The position numbers and the translations under genes were made by a program. Positions 19,344 through 46,219 of a stretch of DNA of 46,346 nt are shown in pieces. Position 1 is the stretch's first letter. Each line of letters opens with the position of its first letter. The notes beneath the pieces are model-generated. The model saw only the letters and a list, made by a program, of their open reading frames with translations. It did no database searches and had not been told where the DNA came from. The stretch is from a virus: positions 1 through 46,346 of IMG/VR virus record IMGVR_UViG_3300022602_003849. One strand, 5' to 3'.

Positions 19344-19346
19344 CCA

Positions 19347-22101: not shown

Positions 22102-22106
22102 TCTGC

Positions 22107-26725: not shown

Positions 26726-28099
26726 ATGGCAGATAGACAGCGAATAGATGAACTAGCTCCCCTCATGGACTCAATCAGTCCAACTTTCTGCATGGCCAAG
26801 TGGCATCACACTACAATATATCTACACACTGGCGAGACACACAGCTGCTACCATCCAGCTCCGCATGCCATAGATATCAAACGTATAGGCATGAACCCAT
26901 CTGCACTGCACAACACTGAATACAAGAAGAGCGAGCGCAGGCAGATGATGGCAGGTGGCAAACCACCCGGCTGTGACTACTGCTGGAAGATCGAGGACAT
27001 GGGTCCTGAGTACGTCAGCGACCGGCACATACGCAACAGCACCATCTATCGTCCAGAACGCTTGGAAGAGATCCGGCAGCGTGGTGCCAGCTTCGACGTC
27101 AAACCAGAATACGTGGAGATCAGCTTTGGCAACGAGTGCAATTTCAAATGCGGATATTGCCATCCCAAGAGCAGCAGCAAGTTCTATAACGAGATCCGAG
27201 ACCACGGCCCCTACACCAGTGTCAAGAATCATCGCTGCGACATAGACTGGATGACGATCTATGAAGAAGATGGTAATCCCTTCGTGGATGCTTGGTGGCA
27301 GTGGTGGCCGCAGATACGCGACACCGTGAACATCATGCGTGTCACGGGTGGCGAACCCCTACTGCACAAGAGCACATGGAAGCTGTTGGATGATCTACTT
27401 GAGAATCCCATGCCCAATCTGGAGCTGAACATCAACAGCAATCTGGGAGTCAAGCCCATACTGGTGGAGCGCATGAGCCGCAAGGTCAGAGAGCTCATGG
27501 ACAGTGGCTGCATCAAGAGCTTCAGCCTGTTCACCAGCTTGGACACCTGGGGTCCGCAGGCAGAATACATACGCACAGGGTTGGACTTGGCAATCTGGGA
27601 ACAGAACCTGGACACTTACATGAGATTGAGCGGACAGATAGTCAGCTTCATGATCACGTTCAATGCGCTGAGCGTGCCCAACTTCCAGAGCCTGCTGGCC
27701 AAGCTGCTGGAATGGCGTGCTCGTTACGCACCCGCAGATGATCCCAGACCCAAGATCCGCAATGTGCGATTTGACACGCCCTATCTCAGGGAACCTCTGC
27801 AGTATGACATCAACATACTGCCCAAGGCAGAATTCATGCCCTACATGCACTCAGCGCTGGCATTCATGGAAGCGCATGAAGCCGACGAAGACAAGCAGGC
27901 ATTTGGAAGTTTGGAAGTAGACAAGTTCCGCAGAGTGGTTAAGTACATGGAGACTACCAACTATGATGCTGACAAGCTGTTGGAAGGTCGCAGGGATTTC
28001 CATGCTTGGTTTACAGAGATTGACAAACGCAGGAACACCAATTTCTGCAGTGTCTTTCCAGAATTGTCTCAATTTTTTCAAGCATGCGGGCAGACATGA
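26726..28099 (+). CDS. Twitch-type radical SAM enzyme
   Basis: A 457-residue protein and first gene of the island. The radical-SAM cluster motif CNFKCGYC gives Cys138, 142 and 145, and VTGGEP (~205) contacts SAM. The N-terminal twitch-like region has Cys22, Cys41, Cys83 and Cys86 (FCMAKW, CDYCW), expected to bind an auxiliary cluster. The C-terminal third is specific. It generates a 5'-deoxyadenosyl radical; the substrate is unknown, although enzymes with this N-terminal layout often act on peptides or bound sugars. It overlaps the next gene by 4 nt (ATGA). Confidence 0.87.
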   Translation: MADRQRIDELAPLMDSISPTFCMAKWHHTTIYLHTGETHSCYHPAPHAIDIKRIGMNPSALHNTEYKKSERRQMMAGGKPPGCDYCWKIEDMGPEYVSDRHIRNSTIYRPERLEEIRQRGASFDVKPEYVEISFGNECNFKCGYCHPKSSSKFYNEIRDHGPYTSVKNHRCDIDWMTIYEEDGNPFVDAWWQWWPQIRDTVNIMRVTGGEPLLHKSTWKLLDDLLENPMPNLELNINSNLGVKPILVERMSRKVRELMDSGCIKSFSLFTSLDTWGPQAEYIRTGLDLAIWEQNLDTYMRLSGQIVSFMITFNALSVPNFQSLLAKLLEWRARYAPADDPRPKIRNVRFDTPYLREPLQYDINILPKAEFMPYMHSALAFMEAHEADEDKQAFGSLEVDKFRRVVKYMETTNYDADKLLEGRRDFHAWFTEIDKRRNTNFCSVFPELSQFFQACGQT

Positions 28100-30582
28100 T
28101 CAGTAATCTTTTGGCAAACGGAAACCATTTCTGCATGGCACCTTGGGTACACATGCATTTCTGGCCCAATGGTAACGTGATCCCTTGCTGTGTCAGTGAC
28201 ACACGCACACCAGTTGGCAATACCAATTCCAACACGCTAGAAGAGATATGGAATGGATCAGACATGAGGCAGCTGCGCCTCAACATGCTAGCTGATGTTC
28301 CCAGTGCTATATGCTCACGCTGCTATGACCAGGAAAAATCCAATGTTTATACACTTAGGCGGCATCTCAACGAAGCATATGCTCATCATCAACATCGAGC
28401 AGCAACTACCATAGCGGATGGTACTGTACCAGAGGTGAACATGGCTTATCTGGACGTGCGATTCAGCAATATCTGTAACCTACGCTGCCGTTCATGCTGT
28501 CACGATCTCAGCAGTAGTTGGTATGACGACTGGAAGGTCATGCATCCGGAGTATGACCAGCCTCGCATACTCAACATCAACAAGAGTGGCGACTTTTGGT
28601 CTCAGCTGCTGCCATATCTTAACCAAGCTGAGGAAGTATACTTTGCTGGCGGCGAAAGCCTGATGACAGAAGAACACTATCAGATATTAGACCATTGGAT
28701 AGCCACTGGTCACACCAAGGTGCGCATACGCTATACTACCAACTTCACAGTGCTGGACTACAAGAAGCGAGATCTGTTTGAGCTGTGGAAGCATTTTCCA
28801 AACATCGCCGTGACAGCTAGCCTTGATGCAAGTGGCAAGCGGGGAGAGTATCTGCGCAAGAACACAGTGTGGGACAGCATCCTAGAAAATCGCAGGCGCA
28901 TGCTCAGAGAAATACCTCATGTAGAATTCCATATCACGCCAACCGTGAGCTTGATGAATGTGCAGCATCTACCAGACTTTCACAGAGAATGGATAGAGCT
29001 GGGGCTGCTTGAACCAGATAATGTGCGCATCAACATACTCGAATTGCCGGAACACAGCAGCGTCAAGACCTTGCCAGCCGGGCTCAAAGATAAGGTTAGG
29101 ACACGTTTGGGACAACACATGGATTGGTTACGTACCCTTGCAGTCAAACAAGACAGTCTTGATGCCTGGCAGAGCATCTTGAATGTCATGGACAGCGAAG
29201 ACTATAGCCATCATCTCAAGGATTGGTACAAGGACACTGCCAAGCTCGACCAGCTGAGGAATGAAAACATTTGGACTGTTTTCCCTGAGCTCAGAGAACT
29301 CAATCCCAGTTTCTGTAGCCTACCTTGGGTAAATCTCAATACCACTCCCATGGGACAGTGCAAGCTCTGCTGCAACATCAGTGACTTCAAGGTGATGTAT
29401 GCACAAGGCGACGAAAGAAATGGCAAAGTCAAGCGAGTGTTCAATTGGGGCGCTGATGATATTGAAAGCATATGGAACAGCATCTACATGGTAGACGTGC
29501 GCACTCACATGCTGGAAGGACAACAGATAAAGGATTGCGGCGAATGTTATGCCAGTGAATCTATCGGCGCAAAGAGTGCACGGCAGGCAGCCAACGACAA
29601 ATTTCAAATCAAAGATCCGCAACCAAAAGCCAAATCATTGCCAATAAGCCTTGAGCTGAGGCTCAGCAACAGGTGCAATCTAACCTGTGTATCGTGTTGG
29701 AGTGGTAGCAGTCATAGCATTGCGGCTGAAAGACAAACAGCACTGGCAGCAGATGATATGCCAGCTTGGTTACATGCAGAATGGAACAATGATATCAGCA
29801 TAAACTTTGACCGTGCTCGTGGGTTTGATAGCGATATCAATTATATAAATCAACCTATGAGCATGGAAAATTTCCTTGCAGTGGCACCGACCTTGGAGCG
29901 CTTATACATCACAGGTGGTGAACCCACCATGGATGCCAACATATATGCCTATCTTGAAGCACTGGCAGATTGTGGAAACACCCAATGCCATGTGAGCTTT
30001 ACTACAAATTGTACACTGTGGAACGAAAAGCTGATGAATGCTCTCAGTAAATTCCCTCACAACGAAATACAGCTAAGCATTGATGGGCATGAAGACATGG
30101 ATGAGTATCTAAGATATCCAACCAAATGGCCAGATGTACACTATAATGTGGAACGATACATGACAGATTCTCGCGTCGATACGCTGCGTATCTTCACTGT
30201 TTACAGTGCTATTAATGCAGCACAGCTAGCACCGCTGTTGCACTATGTCATAAACACTGCCAACAGGTTGAGCCGCAAGGTGATATGGTGGCCTATACTG
30301 CTGACCTATCCCAGCTATCATCGTGTACAGATCCTTGAAGCTCACACACGCAGCAAGATAGCATCGGATCTAGAAGCTGCAATGCTTGATCAAACGAGAT
30401 GGCACGAGGCCTATTGTGATCATCGACATGGTCTTGACCAAGTGCTATTGGCTTTAAAGGATCCCTGCGACGACAGTGCTGCTGATAATAGGTTGCGCCT
30501 GATCCAGCATCTGGATACCCTGGATAGGATAAGGAATCAAAACTGGCGGCAACAGCTTCCATTATTAAGTGAGGTCATATGA
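28096..30582 (+). CDS. Double radical SAM protein, two twitch modules
   Basis: An 828-residue fusion of two complete modules. Module 1 has FCMAPWVHM and PCC near residues 12-32, CSRC at ~73, the cluster motif CNLRCRSC (Cys127, 131, 134) and FAGGES. Module 2 begins at residue ~406 with FCSLPWVNL, then LCC and CGEC, the cluster motif CNLTCVSC (Cys527, 531, 534) and ITGGEP. Each should bind one radical cluster plus an auxiliary cluster. Two active sites in one chain suggest successive steps on one substrate. The ATG at 28096 overlaps the previous stop; ATG 28084 is an alternative. Module 1 has GGES instead of the usual GGEP. Confidence 0.88.
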   Translation: MISNLLANGNHFCMAPWVHMHFWPNGNVIPCCVSDTRTPVGNTNSNTLEEIWNGSDMRQLRLNMLADVPSAICSRCYDQEKSNVYTLRRHLNEAYAHHQHRAATTIADGTVPEVNMAYLDVRFSNICNLRCRSCCHDLSSSWYDDWKVMHPEYDQPRILNINKSGDFWSQLLPYLNQAEEVYFAGGESLMTEEHYQILDHWIATGHTKVRIRYTTNFTVLDYKKRDLFELWKHFPNIAVTASLDASGKRGEYLRKNTVWDSILENRRRMLREIPHVEFHITPTVSLMNVQHLPDFHREWIELGLLEPDNVRINILELPEHSSVKTLPAGLKDKVRTRLGQHMDWLRTLAVKQDSLDAWQSILNVMDSEDYSHHLKDWYKDTAKLDQLRNENIWTVFPELRELNPSFCSLPWVNLNTTPMGQCKLCCNISDFKVMYAQGDERNGKVKRVFNWGADDIESIWNSIYMVDVRTHMLEGQQIKDCGECYASESIGAKSARQAANDKFQIKDPQPKAKSLPISLELRLSNRCNLTCVSCWSGSSHSIAAERQTALAADDMPAWLHAEWNNDISINFDRARGFDSDINYINQPMSMENFLAVAPTLERLYITGGEPTMDANIYAYLEALADCGNTQCHVSFTTNCTLWNEKLMNALSKFPHNEIQLSIDGHEDMDEYLRYPTKWPDVHYNVERYMTDSRVDTLRIFTVYSAINAAQLAPLLHYVINTANRLSRKVIWWPILLTYPSYHRVQILEAHTRSKIASDLEAAMLDQTRWHEAYCDHRHGLDQVLLALKDPCDDSAADNRLRLIQHLDTLDRIRNQNWRQQLPLLSEVI

Positions 30583-31550
30583 GACAGCTGGCTGCAGTGG
30601 AGTGGGATCAAGATCCTGTGTTATTTCTAACTTGGCAAACCAGTGACGTTTGTAACTTTCGTTGCAGTTATTGCAACCAAGGTAACTGGGGCGGTCGCCA
30701 ACCCAATGAAGATGTGCACACCTATCAGCGCAACATCGGAGCTATCCTCGACAGGATGCGACCGCATGGTTATCAAAAGATCAAGCTGTTCCTCAGTGGT
30801 GGGGAACCCACGCATTGGCAAGGTCTGATACCAATGCTGCAATGGTTTAACAGCCTTGCAGGCTGGCAGGTTACCGTAGCAGTAAACACCAATCTATCAA
30901 GACCCACACTGTGGTGGGAAAGATTCTATCATTATTTTGATGATGTGGTAGCCAGTTATCATCCAGAGTGGGTCAAGCATGATCTTTTCATGGCCAACGC
31001 AAAACTTCTAAGCACCAGCGTGAACTATCTGGCAGTGCGCATGATGATGGAAGAAAACCAATGGGACAATCAGATCTTGCGTGGAGATCAGATATACGAT
31101 GCATTGCCAAATGTCTATTTGGAATATGTACCAATACTAGGGGAAATGACCACCAGCGCTATGCCTTATGTTTACAATGATAAACGCAAAGCCACATGGT
31201 TAGAAAATAACAATCTCAGGATCAAGCAAACAGCAGACAAACCGCGGAACAGAGTGGGTGGTACAGGCACGTTGGAACGCTACAGCGACGGCACTGTGCA
31301 ATCTATCAACAGCAATAGATTGGCAGCTGAACGCCGTAATTTTTTCCAAGGTTGGACATGCGACATTGGCAGCAGCATCAATATAGGAATAGATGGTAGT
31401 ATCACTTTGGCCAGCTGTGGTGTCAGTGGAGTCATAGGTAATATCAATGGCGAAATAATGCTAGATGATATGCCCAGCAGTGTGGTTTGTAGCAAGCATC
31501 ACTGCCATTGTGGTACCGATATTTGCATACCAAAAAGGGCACCTGCATGA
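30579..31550 (+). CDS. Radical SAM enzyme with C-terminal Cys cluster
   Basis: A 323-residue protein. The cluster motif CNFRCSYC gives Cys25, 29 and 32 very close to the N terminus, with LSGGEP near residue 77. The C terminus is Cys-rich (TCDIGSSINIG, ASCGVSG, CSKHHCHCGTDIC), which resembles a SPASM or twitch extension with an auxiliary cluster. Here the auxiliary Cys lie after the barrel, unlike the neighbouring genes where they lie before it. The start overlaps the previous stop (ATGA), so it is coupled to the double protein. The substrate is unknown. Confidence 0.86.
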   Translation: MRQLAAVEWDQDPVLFLTWQTSDVCNFRCSYCNQGNWGGRQPNEDVHTYQRNIGAILDRMRPHGYQKIKLFLSGGEPTHWQGLIPMLQWFNSLAGWQVTVAVNTNLSRPTLWWERFYHYFDDVVASYHPEWVKHDLFMANAKLLSTSVNYLAVRMMMEENQWDNQILRGDQIYDALPNVYLEYVPILGEMTTSAMPYVYNDKRKATWLENNNLRIKQTADKPRNRVGGTGTLERYSDGTVQSINSNRLAAERRNFFQGWTCDIGSSINIGIDGSITLASCGVSGVIGNINGEIMLDDMPSSVVCSKHHCHCGTDICIPKRAPA

Positions 31551-32701
31551 CCAACACTCGATGCTCACTGCCGTGGCAAAGTCTAAGCGTGGACAATCAA
31601 GGTCGCAGCAGGATCTGTTGCAACAGCGATGCACATTACAGAGGTAATGTTCACTATAAATTAGCAGATTGCAGCACCGTGTCTGAAGCTATGAACACAC
31701 CCTATCACAAATCTGTGCGACAAAGCATGCTGCAAGGTGAGCGCCACGAAAGCTGCAAGAAGTGCTGGGACATGGAGGATAGCGGCGGTCGCAGTTTCAG
31801 GCAGATATGGAACGAGATTCTGCCACAGACAGACGAAATCACGCCTCAGTATCTTGATATCACGCTGGGCAACAAGTGCAATTTAACCTGCAGGATGTGC
31901 AATGAAGTAAACAGCCACCTGTGGCACATAGACAATGCCAAATTAGGTTGGGTAACTGATACAGAACTCAGCAATACATTCTGGTTTGAGGATGAAGTTA
32001 CCAAAGATCTACTGATGAACGCAGCTCACAGTGCCTCTCACATAAACTTCCTCGGCGGAGAACCACTGATAGTAGGCGAACAAGTTGCATTGTTAGAACG
32101 CTGCATAGAACTTGGCCGTGCAGATCAAATACAGCTCAGTTATAACAGCAACATGACCGTGCTGCGGCCTCGTCAGATGGAGCTTTGGCAGCATTTTAAA
32201 GGTGTGAATCTCTGCGTGAGCATTGACGGTGTTGGCACACAAAATGATTACATACGACAGAACAGTCGTTGGTCTGATATATTGCATAATCTGGAGCTGA
32301 TACATCTAAATTGTGCTAACGTGCGCATGACAGTGCATGCTACCTTTGGAGTTTACAATGCGCTGTCCTTGCATGAGTTGGTGGCGTGGAGCGATGCTCG
32401 GCCATGGTTTGGCGGGCGTTTACCTTGGTTAAACATGGTGTATCGCCCTCATAACCAAGATCCGCGCTGCCTACCCCAAGAGGTCAAACAGCTGATAGCG
32501 GCAAGGATCCGAGCCTGTATCAAATATCGCAATTTTGACCAAAGCTATGATAGTTATATTGGAGCAATCAATCACATGATGCAGCCCAGTATAAGCCCAA
32601 CCCATTGGCAGGAATTCTGGCAAGCGGTTGATCAATTGGATGCCTTCAAAAAGACCAATATAGCAGAATGTTTACCAGAACTGGCGAGATTCAGACCATG
32701 A
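31547..32701 (+). CDS. Twitch-type radical SAM enzyme
   Basis: A 384-residue protein. The twitch-like N terminus has CSLPWQSLS, Cys24-Cys25 and CKKCW (70-74); the radical-SAM motif CNLTCRMC gives Cys111, 115 and 118, followed by FLGGEP. The layout closely matches the genes at 6163 and 26726 and module 2 of the double protein, so these arose by duplication. The start at 31547 is chosen because it overlaps the previous stop (ATGA); the frame is open to 31508. The substrate is unknown. Confidence 0.87.
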   Translation: MTNTRCSLPWQSLSVDNQGRSRICCNSDAHYRGNVHYKLADCSTVSEAMNTPYHKSVRQSMLQGERHESCKKCWDMEDSGGRSFRQIWNEILPQTDEITPQYLDITLGNKCNLTCRMCNEVNSHLWHIDNAKLGWVTDTELSNTFWFEDEVTKDLLMNAAHSASHINFLGGEPLIVGEQVALLERCIELGRADQIQLSYNSNMTVLRPRQMELWQHFKGVNLCVSIDGVGTQNDYIRQNSRWSDILHNLELIHLNCANVRMTVHATFGVYNALSLHELVAWSDARPWFGGRLPWLNMVYRPHNQDPRCLPQEVKQLIAARIRACIKYRNFDQSYDSYIGAINHMMQPSISPTHWQEFWQAVDQLDAFKKTNIAECLPELARFRP

Positions 32702-33954
32702 CTGTGCATTGGGTTTTTGATGATCCACAGCGGTTCATAACCATGAGCGCTTGTGAACACACAGTGTATAGCCCAGATGGACAAAACAACGACGGGCGTT
32801 GGAACATCAGCAACATACATTGGTATTGGCGCAACGCACAACAATGGTATAGCCGAGATGTATCTTGGCAAGCACATGGACTGGATGATAGGCCAAACCG
32901 CTATGTATATCCCATAGGGGCATTCAGCGGGCCCACTTGGTGGTCGGGCCTGCCCAGCAATGGTTGGGGTCATCCCAGCATGTTTGAAATAATACCTGCA
33001 GTGGTCCTAGAGGATGCGCGACAGGGTAAAGTGCTGCTGTTGATTGATAATCTCAATGAAGGTTTTCATATGCCCATGCTGTGGCGTTTCTTGCACAGTG
33101 AATGCAGCAGGCTTGGTATAAATCCACGCTGCCTAGCATATGTGCATAGTAACACCAAAGACGAACAAGCTTATAACATATGGTGCGATGATCTGGGAAT
33201 CTCAGATAGGTTCCATAACATAGCGTTCTGCCACCTCATGTACCAGCAGCGTGTGGCTTTACCAACCTACGGTACTGTGAACTGGGAGCAGCAGCTATCT
33301 CACAAGTCTCACAATATTGACAGCATAAGAATATATAATTGTCTCAACAGGCGCTCGCATCGCCACAGAGAATATCTATTCCTAAGATTGCTGGAGATGG
33401 ATTTGGTTAAGCACGGTTTGGTCAGCTGTGATAAACTGCACTGGGACTGGACTGACAGTGATATCAAACCCATGACCATGGTCAGGGCACAAGGACTCTT
33501 ACCCATAGTGGTTGATGATCACGATTTTTACAACAACAAAGCCATGCATGGCAACCCTGACATCTATCTCAACAGCTGGTTAAGTGTGATCACAGAGACG
33601 CATGCCAATGATGATCCCTATCATTTATTTGTTAGCGAAAAAGTATGGAAACCCATCTATTTCATGCAGCCTTTCATGACGCTGGGCAACCTAGGCTGTG
33701 ATCAACAGCTGCGCGAATGGGGCTACCAAACATACTGGGACATGGATCACCTGTCGTTTGAAAGCAAAGTATCTCAGATATGCCTCGAATTAAAGCGCAT
33801 GAGGCAGATGAGTCAAAATCAACTCATGGATTGGTATCAGAGATTGGAAGAAAAATGCCAACATAACAAAACTCTGTTTATGAAGCAAGACTTCTTTGAT
33901 AGCCCAGCAGCTGACCGCATTGTCAAAGCCTATGTAGGTTTATTGCCATGCTGA
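32698..33954 (+). CDS. Glycosyltransferase-like protein, paralogue 1 of 4
   Basis: A 418-residue protein. The shared C-terminal core reads SVITETHAND, then FVSEKVWKPIYFMQPFMTLGN and LREWGYQTYWDMD. An upstream element NCLNRRSHRHREYLFLRLLE is also shared with the paralogues at 33948, 39167 and 43509. The SEKVWKP plus HPFM-x-x-G pattern resembles the donor-binding half of GT-B or GT10-like enzymes, so a nucleotide-sugar transferase is the best guess; no direct proof exists. The start overlaps the radical-SAM stop (ATGA). The terminal DESYD found in the other three copies reads DMDHL here. Confidence 0.6.
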   Translation: MTVHWVFDDPQRFITMSACEHTVYSPDGQNNDGRWNISNIHWYWRNAQQWYSRDVSWQAHGLDDRPNRYVYPIGAFSGPTWWSGLPSNGWGHPSMFEIIPAVVLEDARQGKVLLLIDNLNEGFHMPMLWRFLHSECSRLGINPRCLAYVHSNTKDEQAYNIWCDDLGISDRFHNIAFCHLMYQQRVALPTYGTVNWEQQLSHKSHNIDSIRIYNCLNRRSHRHREYLFLRLLEMDLVKHGLVSCDKLHWDWTDSDIKPMTMVRAQGLLPIVVDDHDFYNNKAMHGNPDIYLNSWLSVITETHANDDPYHLFVSEKVWKPIYFMQPFMTLGNLGCDQQLREWGYQTYWDMDHLSFESKVSQICLELKRMRQMSQNQLMDWYQRLEEKCQHNKTLFMKQDFFDSPAADRIVKAYVGLLPC

Positions 33955-35213
33955 ATTTTGTCTTTGAACGGTTTGAAGACACACCAATGCGTGCACGCAC
34001 TAACATGGCTGCCTGCACTGACCGTATCGCAGGCAATGACCACAGCAGTGATTGGCCTCGCTTCAGTGAAAGTGGTTTGCTAGCTTATCTATCTGCTGCT
34101 AACTTTGAATTTTCTGAGTGCACCTTGGGTGATAGGCCTGCCCGCTATGTATATGCTACCAGCACATACAATGGTCCGCATTATTGGGCAGGCTGGTCTG
34201 GTAACGACCAGGGCTTTAGAAGCCTGTTTGAATTCATACCCGATGTGGTCTGCAATGATTGCAGATCAGGACACGCAGTGTTGCTCATAGATCAACTCAT
34301 GGAAGGTTATAGCCACGATAGTCTATACGAATTCTTCCATGCTGAGCTAGAAAGACTATCACTGCCAGCCAGATGTTTGATCTACGTGAGCGGCAATCAC
34401 AGAGAATCTCAACGATATCACAGATGGTTGACCACACAAGATCAGAAACAGCCCATAGTGATGCTGAGCCTGCCACACTTAGAATTTATAAGCCGTGGTT
34501 TTTTCCAAAAACAAATTCAGCTAAATTGGCAAGATTATGCTCATCATCTCAACCAGTCTACGACCAGACCACTGTTATATAATTGTCTGAATCGTGTGAA
34601 CCGATATCATAGGAATCTCATGTTCATGCATCTGTGGCAGGCCAACCTCTTGGAGCACGGCCTTGTGAGCTGTGAGAAACTGGACTGGGCTTGGCATTTG
34701 GCACAGAACGGATGGAGCCATGAACAGATCGCAGCAGCCAAATCATGTTTGCCGCGCATCATAGATTTTGATGATTTCAATAACAATCCAGCCATGGATA
34801 TCGCACAGCATATCTATCAGCACACAAGGATTAGCGTGATCACCGAAACCCTGGGCGACGATGCAGCAGATCAGTTGTTTGTCACAGAGAAACCGTTCAA
34901 GAGCATATACATGCTGCATCCGTTCATGGTGCTTGGACAACAGGGACATCTAGCACAGCTGCGCGACTGGGGATATGAAACGTTTGGTGATTTTTGGGAC
35001 GAGAGCTACGATCACATGCCCAACATGGCACAGCGTGCAGCAGCTATAACTGCAAACCTTTGCCAGCTCAGAGACAACAGAGATCTCTATGAGCTGCATC
35101 GCGATCTGAGACATATTTGTGAGCATAACCAAAACAATTTCCTCAGTCGGTCAGCTGATACACCATATCTCAGGACGTTGATACAGGCATTGTATGCTGC
35201 GTTGGATAACTAG
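33948..35213 (+). CDS. Glycosyltransferase-like protein, paralogue 2 of 4
   Basis: A 421-residue protein that is clearly paralogous to its neighbour. It shares the N-terminal half (RYVYATSTYNGPHYWAGW against RYVYPIGAFSGPTWWSGL), NCLNRVNRYHRNLMFMHL, SVITETLGDDAADQLFVTEK, HPFMVLGQQGHLAQLRDWGY and DFWDESYDH. The family is probably GT-B-like (inference from the TEK and HPF-x-x-x-G pattern). It overlaps the previous gene by 7 nt and ends 3 nt before the B12-type radical-SAM gene. The N-terminal region binds the unknown acceptor in this model. Confidence 0.62.
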   Translation: MLNFVFERFEDTPMRARTNMAACTDRIAGNDHSSDWPRFSESGLLAYLSAANFEFSECTLGDRPARYVYATSTYNGPHYWAGWSGNDQGFRSLFEFIPDVVCNDCRSGHAVLLIDQLMEGYSHDSLYEFFHAELERLSLPARCLIYVSGNHRESQRYHRWLTTQDQKQPIVMLSLPHLEFISRGFFQKQIQLNWQDYAHHLNQSTTRPLLYNCLNRVNRYHRNLMFMHLWQANLLEHGLVSCEKLDWAWHLAQNGWSHEQIAAAKSCLPRIIDFDDFNNNPAMDIAQHIYQHTRISVITETLGDDAADQLFVTEKPFKSIYMLHPFMVLGQQGHLAQLRDWGYETFGDFWDESYDHMPNMAQRAAAITANLCQLRDNRDLYELHRDLRHICEHNQNNFLSRSADTPYLRTLIQALYAALDN

Positions 35214-35216
35214 GCA

Positions 35217-37136: not shown

Positions 37137-37233
37137 CTGGCTGCTGGCACCTTACAGGCGCTGGCAGCAACATCGGCGCTATAGGCAACGCCTGGCAGAG
37201 CTGCGCAAGCGCGATCCGTTCATATACCGATGA
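37123..37233 (+). CDS. 36-residue small protein, copy 1
   Basis: The product begins MWMVDWLLAPYRRWQQHRRY and ends ELRKRDPFIYR: a short hydrophobic N terminus followed by a very basic helix. The ATG lies inside the end of the radical-SAM gene and the stop overlaps the next ATG (ATGA), so it is coupled on both sides. A second copy at 39052 shares about 21 of 36 residues in the same order. Two conserved copies behind the same gene end argue strongly that it is translated. It could be a membrane-surface peptide or an accessory of the radical-SAM enzyme (inference). Confidence 0.72.
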   Translation: MWMVDWLLAPYRRWQQHRRYRQRLAELRKRDPFIYR

Positions 37234-38788: not shown

Positions 38789-38844
38789 CATTTGCTGAAT
38801 CGCCACAGAGAGCCGCATAATTACACCATACACGGAGGACGGGC

Positions 38845-38946
38845 ATGCGAGTTGGTATGATAGGACTGGGCAAGCTGGGCTTGCCAGCAGCAGAGGCCAT
38901 GGCAGCAGTGCATGATGTCATGGGCCTGTGGTCGCCCGACCTGTGA
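38845..38946 (+). pseudogene. Truncated nucleotide-sugar dehydrogenase, N-terminal fragment
   Basis: After a good GGAGG ribosome-binding site an ATG opens a 33-residue frame: MRVGMIGLGKLGLPAAEAMA followed by AVHDVMG. It matches the first 27 residues of the intact enzyme at 40403 (VIGLGKLGLPVAEAMARSHDVMG), including the GLGKLGLP nucleotide-binding loop. After that the frame changes to LWSPDL and stops. It is a remnant of a second dehydrogenase gene. The NAD-binding loop alone cannot be active. Confidence 0.85.
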
Positions 38947-38951
38947 GAGTG

Positions 38952-39065
38952 ATGTTTGCAGCAGACAACTATTACAGCAACAGCAGTGATTGGGCTAGGC
39001 AAATAGTCTGGTACGGTAGAAAACAAGCATTACACAAGAGGAGGATAGACTATGTGGTTGATTAG
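38952..39065 (+). pseudogene. Truncated B12-type radical SAM gene, C-terminal fragment
   Basis: The 37-residue frame contains DNYYSNSSDWARQIVWYGRK and ALHKRR, matching the last ~33 residues of the gene at 35217 (SDNYYTCPQTWARQIVWYGR and VLHKRR). The rest of the gene, some 600 codons, is absent. It begins 5 nt after the dehydrogenase fragment stop. Together the two fragments form a deletion scar of a dehydrogenase-radical-SAM pair. The next small gene starts inside its end, exactly as in the intact copy. Confidence 0.85.
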
Positions 39066-39162
39066 TTGGTTACTTACACCTTGGCGCCGTTACAAGCAGC
39101 ATCGGGCTTTCAAGAAACGCATGGCAGAACTGCGCCGCCGCGATCCATTCATCTACAAGTGA
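39052..39162 (+). CDS. 36-residue small protein, copy 2
   Basis: The product begins MWLISWLLTPWRRYKQHRAF and ends ELRRRDPFIYK. It has the same length and layout as copy 1 at 37123: hydrophobic start, basic helix and RDPFIY end. Despite the loss of the gene in front of it, this copy has no stop or frameshift, so it is probably still under selection. GAGGA just upstream could serve as its ribosome-binding site. It lies 4 nt before the glycosyltransferase-like gene. Confidence 0.72.
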   Translation: MWLISWLLTPWRRYKQHRAFKKRMAELRRRDPFIYK

Positions 39163-39166
39163 TCGC

Positions 39167-40378
39167 ATGCCATCGTTGATTCGGGCTCGTCCGCCTAGCA
39201 TAGTCTATGAAGACCTTGACAATCGTCGCAATCTGCTAGCCTGTAACCAGTGGGCCACTGAAGGCATTAGGCCCTTGCATGATTCTTGGGTGCATGCACA
39301 GCTTACCACAGCTTGGCCCGCTTACAGCGTGGCCAATCGGCCAAGGCACTATGTGTTTCCCATTGGCTGTTTCAACAATCCCCAGATGTGGGCTAAGGAA
39401 CCTTTTGCCTACGTACCAGAATCCGTTATGCGTGATGCGCAGCATGGTCGAGTGCTGTTGATATTTGACCAGAGCCAAGAAGGCAACGCAGATCCTGACC
39501 TCTGGTCGTGGTTCTATGCCACTGCGCACAGGTGGCAGATCAATCCTTCACAGATCATCTACATGACCAGTGATCATTTAGCCGAAAAATCACATATTTC
39601 TTGGTGTGATTTCAACGCAGTAAATCTACAGGTTACTGTGATTAGCACCCTGTTTAATCTACACGCCATCACTGACATGCTGCGCAAGCGAGGCGTTGAG
39701 CCCGTGCACTACGATCAATGGCTGCAGGCCAAGCATAGTGGCACCAGCCTGTACAACTGCCTCAACAGGGTCACACATGCCCATCGCCGTTGGCTGTTCC
39801 TCAAGCTGTTTGAGCAGGGTTTGGTGCCGCAGGGGTTGATCAGCATGGACAGCTTCACTGACGTGCCTGCGCTGCCAGATGGCACGCTGTTGGACGATAG
39901 CCTAGTGCGCCGCGTGCAGGGTCTGCTGCCCATGGTAGTAGACAAGGCTGATTTCACAGAGAACCACTTCAACGATCTCAATCCAGACATCTATCTGCGC
40001 AGCTGGGTCACAGTGGTCACTGAAACCTACGTTGATGATGCGCAGCTGCTGATAGGCGAGAAGGTGTTCAAGCCCATGCTGTGTTCTAGCCCCTTCATGA
40101 TACTGGGCAATCCTGGCACGCTTGCACGCTTGCGCGAGCTGGGCTTTGAAACCTTTGGCATGCTCTGGGACGAAAGCTATGATCAGTTGCATACCACTGC
40201 TAGGATGGATGCTATGGTTGCACAGCTGCAGCAGCTGAACCAGATCACAGATCTGGCACAGCACTTCAGGCGAGCAGAATCTGCGCTGCGACACAATCAT
40301 GCGCTGGCCTGGCAGCTGTGGACTGGCAGCAGAGATTATCAGAGGTTACTTGCTATTTGGCGCGATTTGGCAGCATAA
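39167..40378 (+). CDS. Glycosyltransferase-like protein, paralogue 3 of 4
   Basis: A 403-residue protein with the family signatures: RHYVFPIGCFNNPQMW near residue 60, NCLNRVTHAHRRWLFLKLFE, VVTETYVDDAQLLIGEKVFKPM, SPFMILGNPGTLARLRELGF and MLWDESYDQ. It belongs with the genes at 32698, 33948 and 43509. Function is inferred as GT-B/GT10-like sugar transfer. It follows the small ORF copy 2 by 4 nt and precedes the intact dehydrogenase by 24 nt. Confidence 0.62.
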   Translation: MPSLIRARPPSIVYEDLDNRRNLLACNQWATEGIRPLHDSWVHAQLTTAWPAYSVANRPRHYVFPIGCFNNPQMWAKEPFAYVPESVMRDAQHGRVLLIFDQSQEGNADPDLWSWFYATAHRWQINPSQIIYMTSDHLAEKSHISWCDFNAVNLQVTVISTLFNLHAITDMLRKRGVEPVHYDQWLQAKHSGTSLYNCLNRVTHAHRRWLFLKLFEQGLVPQGLISMDSFTDVPALPDGTLLDDSLVRRVQGLLPMVVDKADFTENHFNDLNPDIYLRSWVTVVTETYVDDAQLLIGEKVFKPMLCSSPFMILGNPGTLARLRELGFETFGMLWDESYDQLHTTARMDAMVAQLQQLNQITDLAQHFRRAESALRHNHALAWQLWTGSRDYQRLLAIWRDLAA

Positions 40379-40402
40379 AGTAAGATGTAAAAGGATGATG
40401 CA

Positions 40403-41569
40403 ATGAAAGCAAGCGTTATAGGTTTAGGCAAGCTGGGCTTGCCAGTAGCAGAAGCAATGGCTAGATCACACGATGTCATGGGCATAGATGTCAAGCCAGT
40501 CAGCACACAGTTGGTCAGGCAGGGCAACATGGAGCAGATAGTTGTCCACGGTGACATCATATTCATTGCTGTGCAGACACCACATGATCCAGCTTACGAC
40601 GGCAGCGCGCCAACCAGCCATTTGCCTAACAAGGATTTTGATTACAGCACGGTGATCTCTGTGTTGGATCAATTGGACAAGCTGGACATTGACGGCAAGA
40701 CCGTGGTTCTGATCAGCACTGTGCTGCCAGGTACCACTCGCAGGCAGCTAGCCAAGCATCTAACCAAGGCCAATCTCGTGTACAATCCCTATCTCATCGC
40801 CATGGGCACGGTGGCCTACGACATGGTCAATCCCGAGATGATCATGATAGGCACGGCCACTGGCCGCGATGACATGATCGTGCAGCAGCTGATCAGCTTC
40901 TACAAGCCACTGATGCAGAACAATCCCCGCACGGTGGTTGGCACCTGGGAAGAGATGGAAAGCACCAAGATATTCTACAACACCTTCATATCGGCCAAGC
41001 TCAGCCTGGTTAACATGATACAGGATGTAGCCGAGCGCATAGGCAACATGGACGTTGACGTGGTTGCCAAGGCACTAGCCGACAGCACCTATCGCATCAC
41101 TGGTCCTGCTTACATGAAACCCGGCATGGGCGACGGTGGACCCTGCCATCCGAGAGACAACATCGCGCTGCGCTACATGGCAGAGAAGCTGAAACTAGGC
41201 TACGACCTCTTTGACAGCATCATGCGTGCTCGCGAGGTGCAGGCAGAGAACATCGCACGCGAGCTGGTCAGCCACCGGCTGCCAGTGGTGATACTGGGCA
41301 AGAGCTTCAAGCCAGGCGTGCCCTACACTGACGGCAGCTACGGCATGTTGGTAGGACACTATTGCCAGTCTCTGGGAGCTGATGTATCCTACGATTCTGT
41401 GTCATCCGAACCTGCAGCCTATCTACTAGGACATCAGGGCTATTACACCCAGCAGCTAGATGAGATGGCACAGGGCAGCGTGGTGGTGGATCCGTGGCGT
41501 AGCAGCAAGGTCCCAGATGGTATCATCTACATACCCTATGGTAATACCAGAGAAATTCCAAGCGTATGA
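40403..41569 (+). CDS. UDP-glucose/GDP-mannose-type dehydrogenase
   Basis: A 388-residue nucleotide-sugar dehydrogenase. The N-terminal Rossmann motif is GLGKLGLPVAE (7-17), followed by FIAVQTP and LISTVLPGTT, an active-site helix with FYNTFISAKLSLVN, and the catalytic Cys248 in GGPCHPRDN (usual motif GG-S-C-F-P-K-D). The C-terminal domain carries ILGKSFKPGVPYTDGS for the nucleotide sugar. It oxidises a nucleotide hexose to the uronic acid with two NAD+. AAAGGATGATGCA precedes the ATG. Its stop overlaps the radical-SAM start (ATGA). A truncated second copy lies at 38845. Confidence 0.88.
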   Translation: MKASVIGLGKLGLPVAEAMARSHDVMGIDVKPVSTQLVRQGNMEQIVVHGDIIFIAVQTPHDPAYDGSAPTSHLPNKDFDYSTVISVLDQLDKLDIDGKTVVLISTVLPGTTRRQLAKHLTKANLVYNPYLIAMGTVAYDMVNPEMIMIGTATGRDDMIVQQLISFYKPLMQNNPRTVVGTWEEMESTKIFYNTFISAKLSLVNMIQDVAERIGNMDVDVVAKALADSTYRITGPAYMKPGMGDGGPCHPRDNIALRYMAEKLKLGYDLFDSIMRAREVQAENIARELVSHRLPVVILGKSFKPGVPYTDGSYGMLVGHYCQSLGADVSYDSVSSEPAAYLLGHQGYYTQQLDEMAQGSVVVDPWRSSKVPDGIIYIPYGNTREIPSV

Positions 41570-43527
41570 CCAAACGTCTCAACCTTGTGCAGCCAAATTT
41601 CGCACAAGGGCCACGGGAGCTCAATGCCTATTATCTACCCTACAGTGCAGGGGTGCTGTGGAGCTATGCCAAGAGCATTCCAACTATCGCTGATACCTGG
41701 GAACTGGACAGGCTGGCTTGGCGTAGAGATCCAATTGATCGTGTGTACAAGCAGTTAGCAGAATGTGACGTCATTGGTTTCAGTACCTATGTCTGGAACA
41801 AGAATTATAATTACGAATTAGCCAGGCGTATCAAGGATTACAATCCCAGCTGCACCATAGTGTTCGGTGGTCCAGAACCTCCAGTTGATCGCGAAGATAT
41901 ATTCCAGCTGCATCCCTATATCGATGTTGTGGTCAAACACGAAGGCGAGAAGGCCTTTGCTGATATCCTGGAGCATGGAGTAGGCCCATGGGTCAGAGGC
42001 ATAATCGAAAACGATGGCGGTTGGCCGCAGTCCTGGGGAGAACCGCAGCGCATAAAACAGCTGGATCACATACCAAGCCCCTACACAACAGGCGTCTTTG
42101 ATAGGATAATGGCTGACAATCCTGAAATCATATGGAATGCCACGCTGGAGACCAACAGAGGATGTCCTTATCAATGCACGTTCTGCGATTGGGGTAGCTT
42201 AACCTACAACAAGATCAAGAAGTTTGATCTACAGCGCGTGTTCAATGACATAGAATGGATAGGCGAGAATGAGTGCGATTGGATGAGCATAACTGATGCC
42301 AACTTTGGCATGTTTGTAGCTCGCGATGATCTCATAGCCGAAAAGGTCATAGACACGCAGGATCGATTGGGCTATCCTCGTCGCATGGGATTGAGCTGGG
42401 CCAAGAATCAAAAGTCAGAAGTGGTCAAGCTGGCAAAGAAACTAACCACCAGGGGTTTTAACAACGGGCTCACGCTCAGCGTGCAGAGCTTAGACGATCA
42501 TGTGCTGACCGAGATCAAGAGACAGAACCTGGAGATCAATAAGCTTAACGAAGTGTTTGATCTGTGCCAGCGAGAAGGCGTGACCGTGAACACTGAGCTA
42601 ATACTTGGGTTGCCAGGTGAGACTGTCAACAGCTGGCGGCGTAATGTCTGGGGTTTGTTGGAAATAAACCAACACAGCGGCATAGAGTTCTTCCAGGCAC
42701 AGCTTTTGGAAAACGCAGAGATGAATCTCACGCAGCGTGAGGTACATGCTATTACCAGCATCGCAGTGTGCGATTACCTCAGCGGGAACGACGACGGTGA
42801 TGGTATAGCAGAATCTGTTGAAGTGGTTACCAGCACCCGGGATCTATCACTAGAAGACATGCTGGCCTGCCAGGAATTTAGTTGGTTCATCAACACCTGG
42901 CACATCAATGGCATCAGCCAATGGTACAGCAGATTCCTCAACAGATCGCTGGGCATCAGCTACGAGGAATTCTACACGGGTTTCCAAGCCTGGCTGCAAG
43001 ACCACGCTGATTGGTGGCGCAGTGAACGGCAATTGGTCATGGATGCCTATCGCAGTTGGATGACCACTGGCAGCATCAGCGTTGATCCCGTGGCAGGTGT
43101 GAAGATACACGGCTGGAACCTCATCCATCTCAGCAATCTACGCATGCATGCCCACAACAGCTACCAACAGTATCTTTCAGCCGTGGAGATCTACGCAGAG
43201 TCCGCCTATGGGCACCTGTTGGAATCCGCAGTGCCCGCAGATTCAATGATCAGGCCTCTGTTGGATATGAGAAAGCTTACCAATGCCTATGTGGTACGGT
43301 ATACCAGCATCACACAGTACCCCATGCAGGTACACACAGATAGCAACATCTTGGATTTCATCATATCCGAAAGAGACTTGATCTACAAGCAGGATCCCTA
43401 TCAATTGGATTTCCCAGAAGACAAGCGCATGAGCCTCACTGTTTTCATGCAGAACATCTATTATGCACGACGCCGTAATTTCGGCAAGGCACAGATGTTA
43501 CTGGGCCATCAGAGATCAGAAAAATAA
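41566..43527 (+). CDS. B12-binding-type radical SAM enzyme, second copy
   Basis: A 653-residue paralogue of the gene at 35217. The cluster motif CPYQCTFC gives Cys200, 204 and 207, at exactly the same positions. The N-terminal B12-type domain has VFGGPEPPVD and VKHEGEKAF and again lacks DxHxxG; LILGLPGETV lies near residue 347. Its C terminus (NIYYARRRNFGKAQML) is similar in kind to, but clearly diverged from, that of the first copy. It is coupled to the dehydrogenase (ATGA), suggesting that the nucleotide uronic acid or a derived glycan is its substrate (inference). The end overlaps the convergent gene by 19 nt. Confidence 0.86.
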   Translation: MTKRLNLVQPNFAQGPRELNAYYLPYSAGVLWSYAKSIPTIADTWELDRLAWRRDPIDRVYKQLAECDVIGFSTYVWNKNYNYELARRIKDYNPSCTIVFGGPEPPVDREDIFQLHPYIDVVVKHEGEKAFADILEHGVGPWVRGIIENDGGWPQSWGEPQRIKQLDHIPSPYTTGVFDRIMADNPEIIWNATLETNRGCPYQCTFCDWGSLTYNKIKKFDLQRVFNDIEWIGENECDWMSITDANFGMFVARDDLIAEKVIDTQDRLGYPRRMGLSWAKNQKSEVVKLAKKLTTRGFNNGLTLSVQSLDDHVLTEIKRQNLEINKLNEVFDLCQREGVTVNTELILGLPGETVNSWRRNVWGLLEINQHSGIEFFQAQLLENAEMNLTQREVHAITSIAVCDYLSGNDDGDGIAESVEVVTSTRDLSLEDMLACQEFSWFINTWHINGISQWYSRFLNRSLGISYEEFYTGFQAWLQDHADWWRSERQLVMDAYRSWMTTGSISVDPVAGVKIHGWNLIHLSNLRMHAHNSYQQYLSAVEIYAESAYGHLLESAVPADSMIRPLLDMRKLTNAYVVRYTSITQYPMQVHTDSNILDFIISERDLIYKQDPYQLDFPEDKRMSLTVFMQNIYYARRRNFGKAQMLLGHQRSEK

Positions 43528-44711
43528 CGGCCGATATCAGGGCTATGATTGGTTCGTTCATGTGCTGAATTCAGTACTGCGAGGTTATGTCGGCATATAT
43601 CGCGGCTTTCGTCAATGAATCTAGAGAATCTATCTGAGGACCAAGCAGCTATGTCTGCGATCAGATCAACCACTGCTGATAAGCGTTGCTGGTGATCGAG
43701 GATGCTGTCGTAGCTTTCATCCCACCAATCACTGAACGTCTTATAACCATCTCGTTTCAGTGCGGCAAGGCACCCAGCTGTTCCGACTATGATGAAAGCT
43801 TGCGCGTAACGCATGGGATGGTAGGTCTTTTCACTGATGAACACTCTATTAGCATGGAACAGCGTTTCGGTGACCACACTTATACCAGTTTGTAGATATA
43901 ATTGGTCAATTGAACTACCAAAATGATTGGCAATGAGATTGGATTCTTGGTCATCTGTATCTAATATCATTGGTAGGCTGTTATACAGTTGATCAATGCC
44001 ATTGATAATCATCTGGCTGTCTGGTAGCTCGGCACACTGTTCCCTGACTATTGAAGCTGCGTTGCTTCCTTCGCAATCCCTGGCAAAGCTTAGATAGAAA
44101 TCTTCCAGCAGCCCTGCCTTGTTAAGCATCACTAACAGCTGGAAACGATGTGCTCTAAAGCGGCGATTGAAGCATAGGAAACGCCTACGCACTTGCCTTG
44201 CAATAGTGATTGGTTGTTGCTGTTGCCAGCTACAGCTGATGCTTTCAAATGCCCTGACGTGCAGAGGCAAGAATGGCAATCCCGCATCTCGCATATCATC
44301 CTTTATATCGTGTGAACCTCCTGCAAATATTACTCGATCAGCAGGTATGCCGTAGCTTTGCATATAATCTGTGAACCTGTGATTAGGATAGGGTATGAAA
44401 CCCTCGAGGCTAAGGTTAATCAGCAAGAAACCTCTAGCCTGCAGCAGGCCATCCATCAGCAGAGGGTTTCGAACGAACGGATCTAGTATCTGCCATCCTG
44501 GCATGAAATCTCTGTCTGTATAAAAATAGTTCAGCTCATATAGCCATCTATCACGGACTGTTAGCTCTGCTATTGTTTTCCTAGCCAAGCGTTGGTCTAA
44601 ACCAAGATGCAGCTCCAATTGACTGTAATCTTCTTGACCAGTTGGATACCAGTTTACAGCAGGTTTATCATTGTAAATCAGAGAATGATATGGCAGATAG
44701 ATCTTTTCCAT
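43509..44711 (-). CDS. Glycosyltransferase-like protein, paralogue 4 of 4
   Basis: A 400-residue protein and the most diverged paralogue. It keeps CFNRRFRAHRFQLLVMLNKA, SVVTETLFHANRVFISEKTYHPM, AFIIVGTAGCLAALKRDGY and DWWDESYDS. The frame is open to 44876, but that part overlaps the start of the carbamoyltransferase gene; the ATG at 44711 (MEKIYLPYHSLIY) is the sensible start. It is the only island gene on the minus strand and more AT-rich than its neighbours, which suggests separate insertion. Activity is inferred as for the other three. Confidence 0.62.
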   Translation of the reverse strand: MEKIYLPYHSLIYNDKPAVNWYPTGQEDYSQLELHLGLDQRLARKTIAELTVRDRWLYELNYFYTDRDFMPGWQILDPFVRNPLLMDGLLQARGFLLINLSLEGFIPYPNHRFTDYMQSYGIPADRVIFAGGSHDIKDDMRDAGLPFLPLHVRAFESISCSWQQQQPITIARQVRRRFLCFNRRFRAHRFQLLVMLNKAGLLEDFYLSFARDCEGSNAASIVREQCAELPDSQMIINGIDQLYNSLPMILDTDDQESNLIANHFGSSIDQLYLQTGISVVTETLFHANRVFISEKTYHPMRYAQAFIIVGTAGCLAALKRDGYKTFSDWWDESYDSILDHQQRLSAVVDLIADIAAWSSDRFSRFIDESRDICRHNLAVLNSAHERTNHSPDIGRYFSDL

Positions 44712-44716
44712 TAGGA

Positions 44717-44726
44717 TACTTATAAT
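44717..44726. promoter_or_regulatory. Divergent promoter-like element
   Basis: The 32-bp gap between divergent starts holds TATAAT on the plus strand (44721-44726, 17 nt before the carbamoyltransferase ATG, followed by GAGGTGG). On the minus strand it reads TATAAGTA, one mismatch from TATAAATA, ending 5 nt before the ATG at 44711. One short sequence may thus serve both genes. Confidence 0.4.
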
Positions 44727-44743
44727 TGTAAAAGAGGTGGTAC

Positions 44744-46219
44744 ATGATAACTTGGGGCATATCAGCAGGTGGTCACGACGCAGCGATCTCAGTGCTGCGA
44801 GACGGTGAGATAGTGCTTGCTGCCCACAGCGAGCGCTACAGCAGGCGCAAGAACGATCCCCAGCTGTGCTGGCCACTGATCCGAGAAGCGTTCATGCACG
44901 GTGAACCCAACACCATCATATGGCACGAACGACCTTGGCTGCTGAAGACTCGCGCTGCCTATGCAGGACAGTGGGATGAGGTGTGGGGTCCCAGTGTAAA
45001 GGATCATCTCAAGGGCAAATTTCTAGACAAGGTTCCCCTGCGCACTGTGTTGCATCATCACAGCCATGCTGCAGGTGGTTATTATACCAGCGGGTTCAGG
45101 GATGCTGTGATCATCGTGGTAGATGCCATAGGCGAGTGGGACACTCTCAGCATCTGGGAAGGTCGTGACCACGAAGTCTACAAGCGTGCCAGCATCAGCT
45201 ATCCCAACAGCCTTGGCCTGTTCTACACAGCCATGACACAGCGCTGTGGTTTCAAACCCAACGAAGAAGAATACATCATGATGGGCCTGGCAGCACTGGG
45301 AGATCCGCTGCGTCTGGCGCAGCAGATGCGCGATGACCTCATCGAAGTCACAGACAGTTGGCCTTTCTTCAAGCTGCGGCACAACCTGCACAGAGGCTGT
45401 CAATGGTGGCTGCCTGAAGAGACCAATGCAGCAGACATCGCTGCTGCAGCACAGCAGATATTCACCACTATCATGGTCAGCATCTGTGCCTATGCTCGCG
45501 ACCTCGTGGGCAGCAACAATCTGGTGCTCAGCGGCGGCTGTGCGCTGAACTGCGTGACCAACAGCATGCTGGTCTACAGCAATATCTGGGACCGCGTGTG
45601 GATCATGCCCAATCCCGGCGATGCCGGCAACAGCCTGGGTGCTGCATTAGCCTACCACGGGGAACATATCAAGTGGCAAGGACCCTATCTGGGCCACAAC
45701 ATCACGGGCGACTATCCTGTGCAGCGTGCGCTGTCAGTGCTGGGCCTGGGACAGCTGGTTGGCATAGCCAACGGTCGCGCAGAGTTCGGACCACGTGCGT
45801 TTGGTAACCGCAGCCTGCTGGGAGATCCCAGAGATCCAGACATCAAGCACAAGATGAATGTGGCCAAGAAGCGCGAGAGCTTCAGACCGTTCGCGCCAGT
45901 GATCATAGAAGAACTGGCAGGCAGCTACTTTGATGTTCTGGGACAGGATCACAGCTACATGCAGTACACCGTGCGCTGCAAGAGTCCTGATCTCTATCCT
46001 GGCATCGTGCATGTGGATGGTACCAGCAGGCTGCAGACAGTGAACCGGCATCAGCATCCAAAACTCTGGGAGCTGTTGGTGCGTTGGTACAACATGACTG
46101 AATGTCCCATGTTGGTCAATACCAGCTTGAATATCAAAGGTCAGCCCCTGGTTAACACAGAGGCTGACGCAGAAGCATTTACCAGTGAATACGGTATCCC
46201 GGTGTTCTGCCGAGATTAA
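44744..46219 (+). CDS. NodU/CmcH-family carbamoyltransferase
   Basis: A 491-residue O-carbamoyltransferase. The N-terminal ASKHA-type domain has GISAGGHDAAISVL (5-18), the metal-binding HHHSHAAGG (104-112), VVDAIGEWDT and LSGGCALNC near residue 265; the C-terminal domain has AEFGPRAFGNRSLLGDP, which binds carbamoyl-adenylate. All landmark motifs are present, so it is likely active. The family moves a carbamoyl group from carbamoyl phosphate with ATP to a hydroxyl of a sugar or other molecule. Relatives are common in T4-type marine phages. GAGGTGG precedes the ATG. Its stop overlaps the convergent gene (TTAA). The acceptor may be the product of the radical-SAM and sugar genes. Confidence 0.9.
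   Translation: MITWGISAGGHDAAISVLRDGEIVLAAHSERYSRRKNDPQLCWPLIREAFMHGEPNTIIWHERPWLLKTRAAYAGQWDEVWGPSVKDHLKGKFLDKVPLRTVLHHHSHAAGGYYTSGFRDAVIIVVDAIGEWDTLSIWEGRDHEVYKRASISYPNSLGLFYTAMTQRCGFKPNEEEYIMMGLAALGDPLRLAQQMRDDLIEVTDSWPFFKLRHNLHRGCQWWLPEETNAADIAAAAQQIFTTIMVSICAYARDLVGSNNLVLSGGCALNCVTNSMLVYSNIWDRVWIMPNPGDAGNSLGAALAYHGEHIKWQGPYLGHNITGDYPVQRALSVLGLGQLVGIANGRAEFGPRAFGNRSLLGDPRDPDIKHKMNVAKKRESFRPFAPVIIEELAGSYFDVLGQDHSYMQYTVRCKSPDLYPGIVHVDGTSRLQTVNRHQHPKLWELLVRWYNMTECPMLVNTSLNIKGQPLVNTEADAEAFTSEYGIPVFCRD

Follow-up and report, generated by a model that had tools for sequence, protein, structure and literature searches.

What a phage would make with a long run of radical S-adenosylmethionine (SAM) enzymes and glycosyltransferase (GT)-like proteins, and where it would place the product, is the question raised by an island at 26726–46219 of the IMG/VR virus record IMGVR_UViG_3300022602_003849, an uncultured water virus whose 46,346 bases are referred to here as the window. 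The island is best explained as an accessory module by which aquatic tailed phages glycosylate a target. The synthesis and transfer of a modified sugar are very probably phage-encoded and, given such a pathway, tail fibres are the somewhat favoured acceptor. The complete reading, in which a cytosolic pathway makes an oxidised, C-methylated and carbamoylated sugar and would attach it to tail fibres, is a tentative one that falls just short of probable.

Gene content of the island

The gene set that the earlier note had read from the letters was recovered in full by hmmscan and translation of the window, with every named part at the coordinates given below. It comprises six radical-SAM genes, whose seven domains all retain the CxxxCxxC motif intact, four paralogues of a family called DESYD, and one gene each for a sugar dehydrogenase, a carbamoyltransferase, an SGNH protein and a GT-like protein. 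The note's gene calls were sound in content, with several starts shifting to an ATGA start; in its layout, one DESYD gene proved to lie on the opposite strand, and a small open reading frame (ORF) had been missed in each of two gaps, one of 93 bp ahead of the SGNH gene and one of 378 bp ahead of DESYD3. Its description of the genes as mostly joined by ATGA overlaps agrees with the seven exact overlaps found (28096, 30579, 31547, 32698, 37230, 38039, and 41566), and the island genes form one overlapping, transcription-unit-like block.

26726–28099 (+): N_TwiA, N-twitch radical-SAM; NF033640, 321.9 bits
28096–30582 (+): double N-twitch radical-SAM with two complete domains; NF033640, 656.4 bits in two stretches; longer ORF from 28084
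30579–31550 (+): radical-SAM of phrog_13987/STM4011-like type, from profile matches
31547–32701 (+): N-twitch radical-SAM; NF033640, 331.3 bits; ATGA overlap; listed ORF from a TTG at 31508
32698–33954 (+): DESYD1, predicted GT-B glycosyltransferase, from paralogue alignment and family model; listed ORF from 32668
33948–35213 (+): DESYD2, predicted GT-B glycosyltransferase, from paralogue alignment and family model
35217–37136 (+): B12_1, cobalamin-binding radical-SAM, relative of KedN5-type C-methyltransferases; PF04055, 37.9 bits, over cut-off
37129–37233 (+): predicted microprotein 1, 34 residues, ending RKRDPFIYR; its stop overlaps the SGNH start as ATGA
37230–38042 (+): SGNH/DUF6071 hydrolase-like protein (putative acyl transfer or removal); PF19547, 64.7 bits
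38039–38788 (+): GT-like protein, function suggested by its DTRSD motif; no Pfam or PHROG match
38845–39026 (+): decayed duplicate, a dehydrogenase start (38845–38928) and then a B12_1 end (38961–39026)
39052–39162 (+): predicted microprotein 2, 36 residues, ending RRRDPFIYK; AGGAGG just ahead
39167–40378 (+): DESYD3, predicted GT-B glycosyltransferase (sequence used for the model)
40403–41569 (+): nucleotide-sugar (UDP-glucose type) dehydrogenase; PF03721/PF00984 over cut-off
41566–43527 (+): B12_2, cobalamin-binding radical-SAM; closest solved relative TokK
43509–44711 (−): DESYD4, predicted GT-B glycosyltransferase of a separate, older clade, from alignment and tree
44744–46219 (+): carbamoyltransferase, NodU/TobZ/NovN family; PF02543 and PF16861 over cut-off
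22718–23965 (+): pentein (amidinotransferase-like), upstream of the island
6124–7353 (+): eighth radical-SAM gene, N-twitch, between tail-fibre-like genes and outside the island; NF033640, 187 bits

The decayed duplicate at 38845–39026 is a scar of gene duplication inside the island.

The gene set recurs together in phage contigs

Loci with 10-kb flanks were collected from viral contigs by three kinds of seed, namely DESYD, the B12-type radical-SAM genes and, as a control, terminase. Each seed list was the best 80, near-duplicates included, and the seeded loci reduced to 96 nonredundant ones. DESYD genes were found in 42 of the 79 B12-seeded loci versus three of the 80 control loci (Fisher p = 4e-13), where the control loci were shorter in total (927 vs ∼1,310 kb). 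The same B12-seeded loci contained N_Twi-type radical-SAM genes (32), nucleotide-sugar dehydrogenases (20), penteins (14), and carbamoyltransferases (13), and the DESYD-seeded loci (n = 79) gave a similar list: N_Twi in 65, dehydrogenase in 24, pentein in 15, B12 in 14, and carbamoyltransferase in 11. Twelve control loci held an N_Twi gene and none held any of the other four. The gene set recurs together in many phage contigs and hardly ever in bacteria; the co-occurrence of radical-SAM and DESYD genes, which the earlier note had proposed to look for in other phages, is conserved rather than scattered, and this favours its idea of a shared pathway.

A close relative of the window (G001, IMGVR 3300021138_001972, 87 kb) keeps the gene order of most of it, with identities of 54–92% for most island proteins, 46% for DESYD4 and 42% for DESYD1, and a second record (3300009182_004229) keeps much of that order. 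Near the island of the closest relative an S-adenosylmethionine-synthetase-like N terminus was recognised by eye (L172 19157–20000; G001 19157–20311), which would supply SAM. In other loci the module's partners include a DegT aminotransferase, a short-chain dehydrogenase/reductase (SDR), a cytidylyltransferase-cupin protein, a 2-oxoglutarate (2OG) oxygenase, an extra SGNH protein, a carbamoyltransferase, and an amidinotransferase. Only two of 11 large contigs picked by terminase alone contained DESYD, and the module is thus accessory. The region is hypervariable and its gene content differs among loci, as would be expected if unrelated accessory genes had been parked there with no common pathway; against the strong pairwise co-occurrence, conserved order, gene overlaps, and fusions, that explanation is barely credible.

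Predicted enzymes and the probable sugar pathway

The DESYD family, searched with 87 members, matches no Pfam family. Its members share the motifs CLNRR-x-R-HR, LP-D, SVxET, F-SEK-FKP, and DESYD, with four invariant columns. The AlphaFold model (predicted local distance difference test, pLDDT, 93.2; predicted template modelling score, pTM, 0.91) has PDB matches that are mostly nucleotide-sugar GT-B enzymes, including TPS (1.3e-4), BshA (2e-4), UDP-GlcNAc 2-epimerase, and FUT13. DESYD is fused to a UDP-glucose-type dehydrogenase in three loci (L112, L079, and L070) and to an SDR epimerase/dehydratase in two (L104 and L061), and a fusion is also found in one BFVD entry. In the tree, DESYD1–3 from the window group as recent paralogues in one clade (36 sequences, 32 loci; support 0.97), and DESYD4 falls in another (support 0.98). 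There are at least 502 relatives in IMG/VR viral contigs, one match in 84,980 prokaryotic genomes and none in 50,697 phage records, the viral to prokaryotic ratio being approximate because the genome-scan patterns were slightly stricter. DESYD and N_TwiA are almost confined to uncultured aquatic phages and essentially absent from cultured ones. Partial sets do occur in cultured phages, among them N-twitch genes in Vibrio phages K566 and K567. A cellular origin of DESYD was considered and rejected, given the single bacterial match (L168, 4940–6229); this gene lies on a chromosomal contig within a GT cluster, adjoining a 2OG oxygenase-like and two GT-like genes.

Four of the island's radical-SAM domains, in three genes, exceed the curated cut-off of 170 bits for N_Twi_rSAM (NF033640) across the full profile; the remainder are the phrog_13987-type protein and the two B12-binding proteins. 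The cysteines Cys138, Cys142, and Cys145 of the CxxxCxxC motif, and N-terminal Cys22, Cys41, Cys83, and Cys86, are invariant in the N_Twi family alignment. N_TwiA is the most conserved gene of the module, with 47 phage homologues of 50–91% identity and 134 positions conserved at ≥97%. Its AlphaFold2 model (pLDDT 89.7) resembles the aminoglycoside-sugar enzyme AprD4 (3.6e-4, TM 0.31), SkfB, and viperin, with query TM-scores of ∼0.3. N_Twi proteins exceeded the cut-off in only two of 398 bacterial genomes; tandem bacterial N_Twi_rSAM genes, weakly like those of the phages, were observed on contig C19 of G109 (4283–9859; L187 covers part). The B12-binding domain of B12_1 scored 24.0 bits, under cut-off. 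B12_2 matches TokK (2e-71) and CysS (2e-46), both C-methylases, and it is from this homology that C-methylation by B12_1 and B12_2 is predicted.

The carbamoyltransferase scored 135.8 bits for PF02543 and 163 bits for PF16861 and matches NovN (5e-61), TobZ (∼1e-39), and GdmN, the first two of which act on sugars. In the dehydrogenase, the PF03721/PF00984 domains scored 67.8 and 64.7 bits and the catalytic Cys (GGPCHPRD) and Lys align with those of solved enzymes; TIGR03026 scored 152.3 bits, under its cut-off of 189.8, and the C-terminal UDP-binding domain PF03720 was not detected in the Pfam scan. The pentein gene lies upstream of N_TwiA, separated from it by 2.8 kb that contain the sigma gene. 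Solved relatives of its product are HsvA, SxtG, AGAT, and StrB1, and related genes occur in many of the island loci as well as in clusters of Campylobacter phages.

Read from their families, the dehydrogenase would oxidise a UDP-sugar, giving a uronate; methyl groups would be placed on unreactive carbons by the B12 radical-SAM enzymes and other carbon-centred changes made by the N-twitch enzymes; and acyl and carbamoyl groups would be added or removed by the SGNH protein and the carbamoyltransferase. As predicted GT-B glycosyltransferases, the DESYD proteins would then hand the resulting sugar or sugars to an acceptor. The earlier note had left the target open among DNA, host surface glycan and tail fibre; the most likely acceptor is a virion protein of the tail-fibre or adhesin kind, which would be modified late in infection and in the cytosol. 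Such a modification would alter adsorption or shield the fibre. The claim that one pathway makes and attaches a heavily modified sugar is supported by the co-occurrence, the operon-like genes, the GT-B model of DESYD and the fusions to nucleotide-sugar enzymes.

Both small ORFs of the island belong to a microprotein family. A scan of IMG/VR for RDPFIYK followed by a stop returned at least 120 stretches; among the matches listed, all but one were ORFs of at most 70 residues (one of them truncated where the locus ends), and a carbamoyltransferase gene was present in 102 of the 119 loci listed, in most cases overlapping the microprotein or directly following it. When loci were seeded independently on the carbamoyltransferase, 53 of 80 had a DPF[IV]Y microprotein, and in 38 it stood ≤60 bp upstream. 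It was found in none of 80 terminase loci, 398 bacterial genomes, or the six carbamoyltransferase regions of cultured phages or single viruses that were checked, and it has no Pfam match. The 159 distinct sequences have a median length of 37 residues and a mean net charge of ∼+8, and their conservation extends beyond the search pattern to a Glu at −11 (137 sequences) and a Lys at −15 (133 sequences). The copies in the window precede the SGNH and DESYD3 genes, not the carbamoyltransferase; adjacency to SGNH was also seen in L291 and L298. The microprotein appears to be a so far unannotated protein usually coupled to carbamoyltransferase genes of aquatic phages.

This microprotein, or some other precursor, might instead give rise to a free small molecule or modified peptide, similar to an antibiotic, a cofactor or a ribosomally synthesized and post-translationally modified peptide. 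The carbamoyltransferase, C-methylase, amidinotransferase, and aminoglycoside-type radical-SAM relatives do resemble antibiotic tailoring sets, the microprotein C terminus is invariant, and the N-twitch proteins resemble peptide maturases. However, the microprotein tracks the carbamoyltransferase, most of the listed loci where it does so are without an N-twitch gene in the DNA examined, no exporter or peptidase recurs, and each locus has several GTs, which makes this origin improbable. Returning to a sugar on tail fibres, a bolder version would have a virus-only N_TwiA/DESYD pathway yielding a C-methylated, carbamoylated uronate-type sugar unknown from cells, with the microprotein as partner or acceptor of the carbamoyltransferase, a role like that of the HypE tail in HypF; this version is distinctly unlikely.

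Position, acceptor and known systems

The gene order tail fibre (phrog_19602), TAIL57, GT, GT, GT-like, N_TwiA, (2OG oxygenase), DESYD, and SGNH was found in ∼15 nonredundant T4-like loci, counting those with TAIL57, the phrog_19602 gene or both. In the 118-kb record G006, baseplate gp25 is at 22 kb, the baseplate wedge at 22–26 kb, and a 6,552-residue protein extends to 45 kb; next come fibre-like genes up to 51 kb, with tail-fibre genes at 45493–50940 directly ahead of the module, which occupies 54–77 kb. DESYD lies 34–57 kb downstream of gp25 on the same strand in eight of the 14 records with gp25 over cut-off. In exploratory analyses, ATAAATA motifs resembling late promoters were seen ahead of the fibre gene in six loci, a small number, and the GT and radical-SAM genes from GTb to DESYD were tightly packed, with a median gap of ∼−1.

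The position also bears on whether the island modifies phage DNA or RNA by base glycosylation or hypermodification. Glycosylated bases occur in T4-type phages, QueE-like radical-SAM enzymes serve deazaguanine DNA modification, and weak QueE profile matches were obtained here. However, the module lies by tail genes and not replication genes where it can be placed, it is accessory, and none of its genes matched a DNA-modification family, so that a nucleic acid target is highly improbable.

The main rival keeps the same sugar pathway and makes a host surface glycan (lipopolysaccharide O-chain or capsule) the acceptor, blocking superinfection or protecting progeny at lysis. Surface glycans often contain carbamoylated and uronate sugars. 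In phage HTVC008M a GT, a methyltransferase, a carbamoyltransferase, a UDP-glucose dehydrogenase, and a 2OG oxygenase stand in one run, and in the available text on pelagimyophages the GT and UDP-glucose dehydrogenase genes by the tail fibres are interpreted as host-surface modifiers (PMC7029224). Nevertheless, no flippase, polymerase, transporter, anchor, or ABC exporter recurs across the 96 loci, in which only 16 of 1,722 genes have three or more hydrophobic segments by simple hydropathy. No gtr-type O-antigen module, with its polytopic flippase and membrane GT, was found, and the window island has no membrane segment. This near-absence of polytopic membrane proteins fits a cytosolic acceptor, although host export machinery could stand in for the export genes. 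Packing behind tail-fibre genes also suits late expression better than early exclusion. A host glycan is therefore a somewhat unlikely acceptor.

Several observations weigh against the tail-fibre reading. The window island is divergent from a sigma-factor gene and not directly behind tail genes, and gp25 was not detected in the window's lineage, so that the argument from tail position relies on analogy with relatives. Of 26 island records, only 11 have collagen-like fibres, and control loci without DESYD (L262 and L276) are about as Thr-rich at the collagen Y position; no specific fibre is pinned down by these data. Soluble GTs could also act on host lipid-linked glycans. All of the island's enzyme activities are predictions from sequence or model: DESYD aligns to solved enzymes with low TM-scores (top matches ≤∼0.44 by query length), so that the predicted fold class is better supported than the exact family, and the fold search leaves the N_TwiA reaction undecided, since AprD4, SkfB, and viperin all match. 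Collagen-like GPT repeats, an idea taken from BclA, were also considered as the specific target and dropped as a general claim on the same record count and Thr-rich controls.

Should glycosylation of tail fibres hold, these phages would dress their adsorption apparatus with sugars from a chemistry otherwise known in antibiotic biosynthesis, adding a layer of phage-host recognition overlooked by genome annotation. It would also give functions to the virus-restricted DESYD family, the N-twitch radical-SAM proteins, and the carbamoyltransferase-linked microprotein.

Neighbouring genes in the window match phage families (exonuclease subunit, sigma factor, endolysin, and tail fibre) and include collagen and S74 fibre genes. 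The divergent gene at 24885–26363 (−) encodes an RpoD-like sigma factor of full length, in which regions 1.2 to 4 as well as the non-essential region are present. The fibre proteins encoded at 2839–5916, 8678–12082, and 15826–17622 are long, collagen-like and Thr-rich; one has an S74 chaperone, and their lengths are strongly unlike those in G001. An NUMOD3 homing-endonuclease-like gene (14647–15318) sits amid tail-fibre genes, and other genes encode a subtilase with a signal-like N terminus and, by eye, a possible C-terminal barrel (19988–22030, −) and an Fe/Mn superoxide dismutase (22017–22646). A search for RNA elements gave only tRNAs over threshold and no B12 or SAM riboswitch, and no sigma-70 promoter or terminator ahead of the island rose above chance.

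The earlier note knew of no such dense set of radical-SAM genes, a statement that the literature does not support: phage glycosylation and radical-SAM modules have precedents in Campylobacter phages and in pelagimyophage host-recognition clusters. Campylobacter phages CP220 and CPt10 carry 11–12 radical-SAM genes and have clusters in which a glycine amidinotransferase is found (PMC2853527). The likeness lies in an interchangeable phage cluster of about five radical-SAM genes with the amidinotransferase, of which the window pentein is a distant relative, and in the location of the CPt10 cluster, which is no more than ∼20 kb away from baseplate and tail-fibre genes (L186). In contrast, the CPt10 radical-SAM genes match the window set weakly (rSAM_C type, 20–27 bits), and the search of CPt10 detected neither DESYD nor a gene for a B12-radical-SAM protein, a dehydrogenase, or a carbamoyltransferase. 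In pelagimyophages and cyanomyophages the host-recognition cluster is a hypervariable region that lies behind baseplate/VrlC and contains tail fibres, GTs, UDP-glucose 6-dehydrogenase, and radical-SAM cassettes; the available text mentions the radical-SAM genes only in passing and has no description of DESYD, the N_TwiA core, or the microprotein (PMC7029224).

Among single enzymes, both B12 genes of the window align with TokK, CysS, and KedN5 over the B12 and radical-SAM domains, but at 264 (B12_1) and 241 bits (B12_2) against the KedN5-type family NF033712 (cut-off 700) they are relatives and not members. The carbamoyltransferase resembles the O-carbamoyltransferases NodU, TobZ, and NovN in both Pfam domains and is related to sugar carbamoylators, the phage clade differing in its usual coupling to the microprotein. 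That coupling recalls, by description, the SxtI-SxtJ-SxtK system, in which a 165-bp gene accompanies that of a NodU-type carbamoyltransferase; its very small product, SxtK, was proposed to act together with the enzyme (PMC2679770). Finally, giant DNA viruses likewise encode their own sugar synthesis and transfer, in eukaryotic hosts and with another enzyme set, as far as the available text describes (PMC4691112), and a DESYD-like fold is predicted in Mimivirus LCMiAC02.

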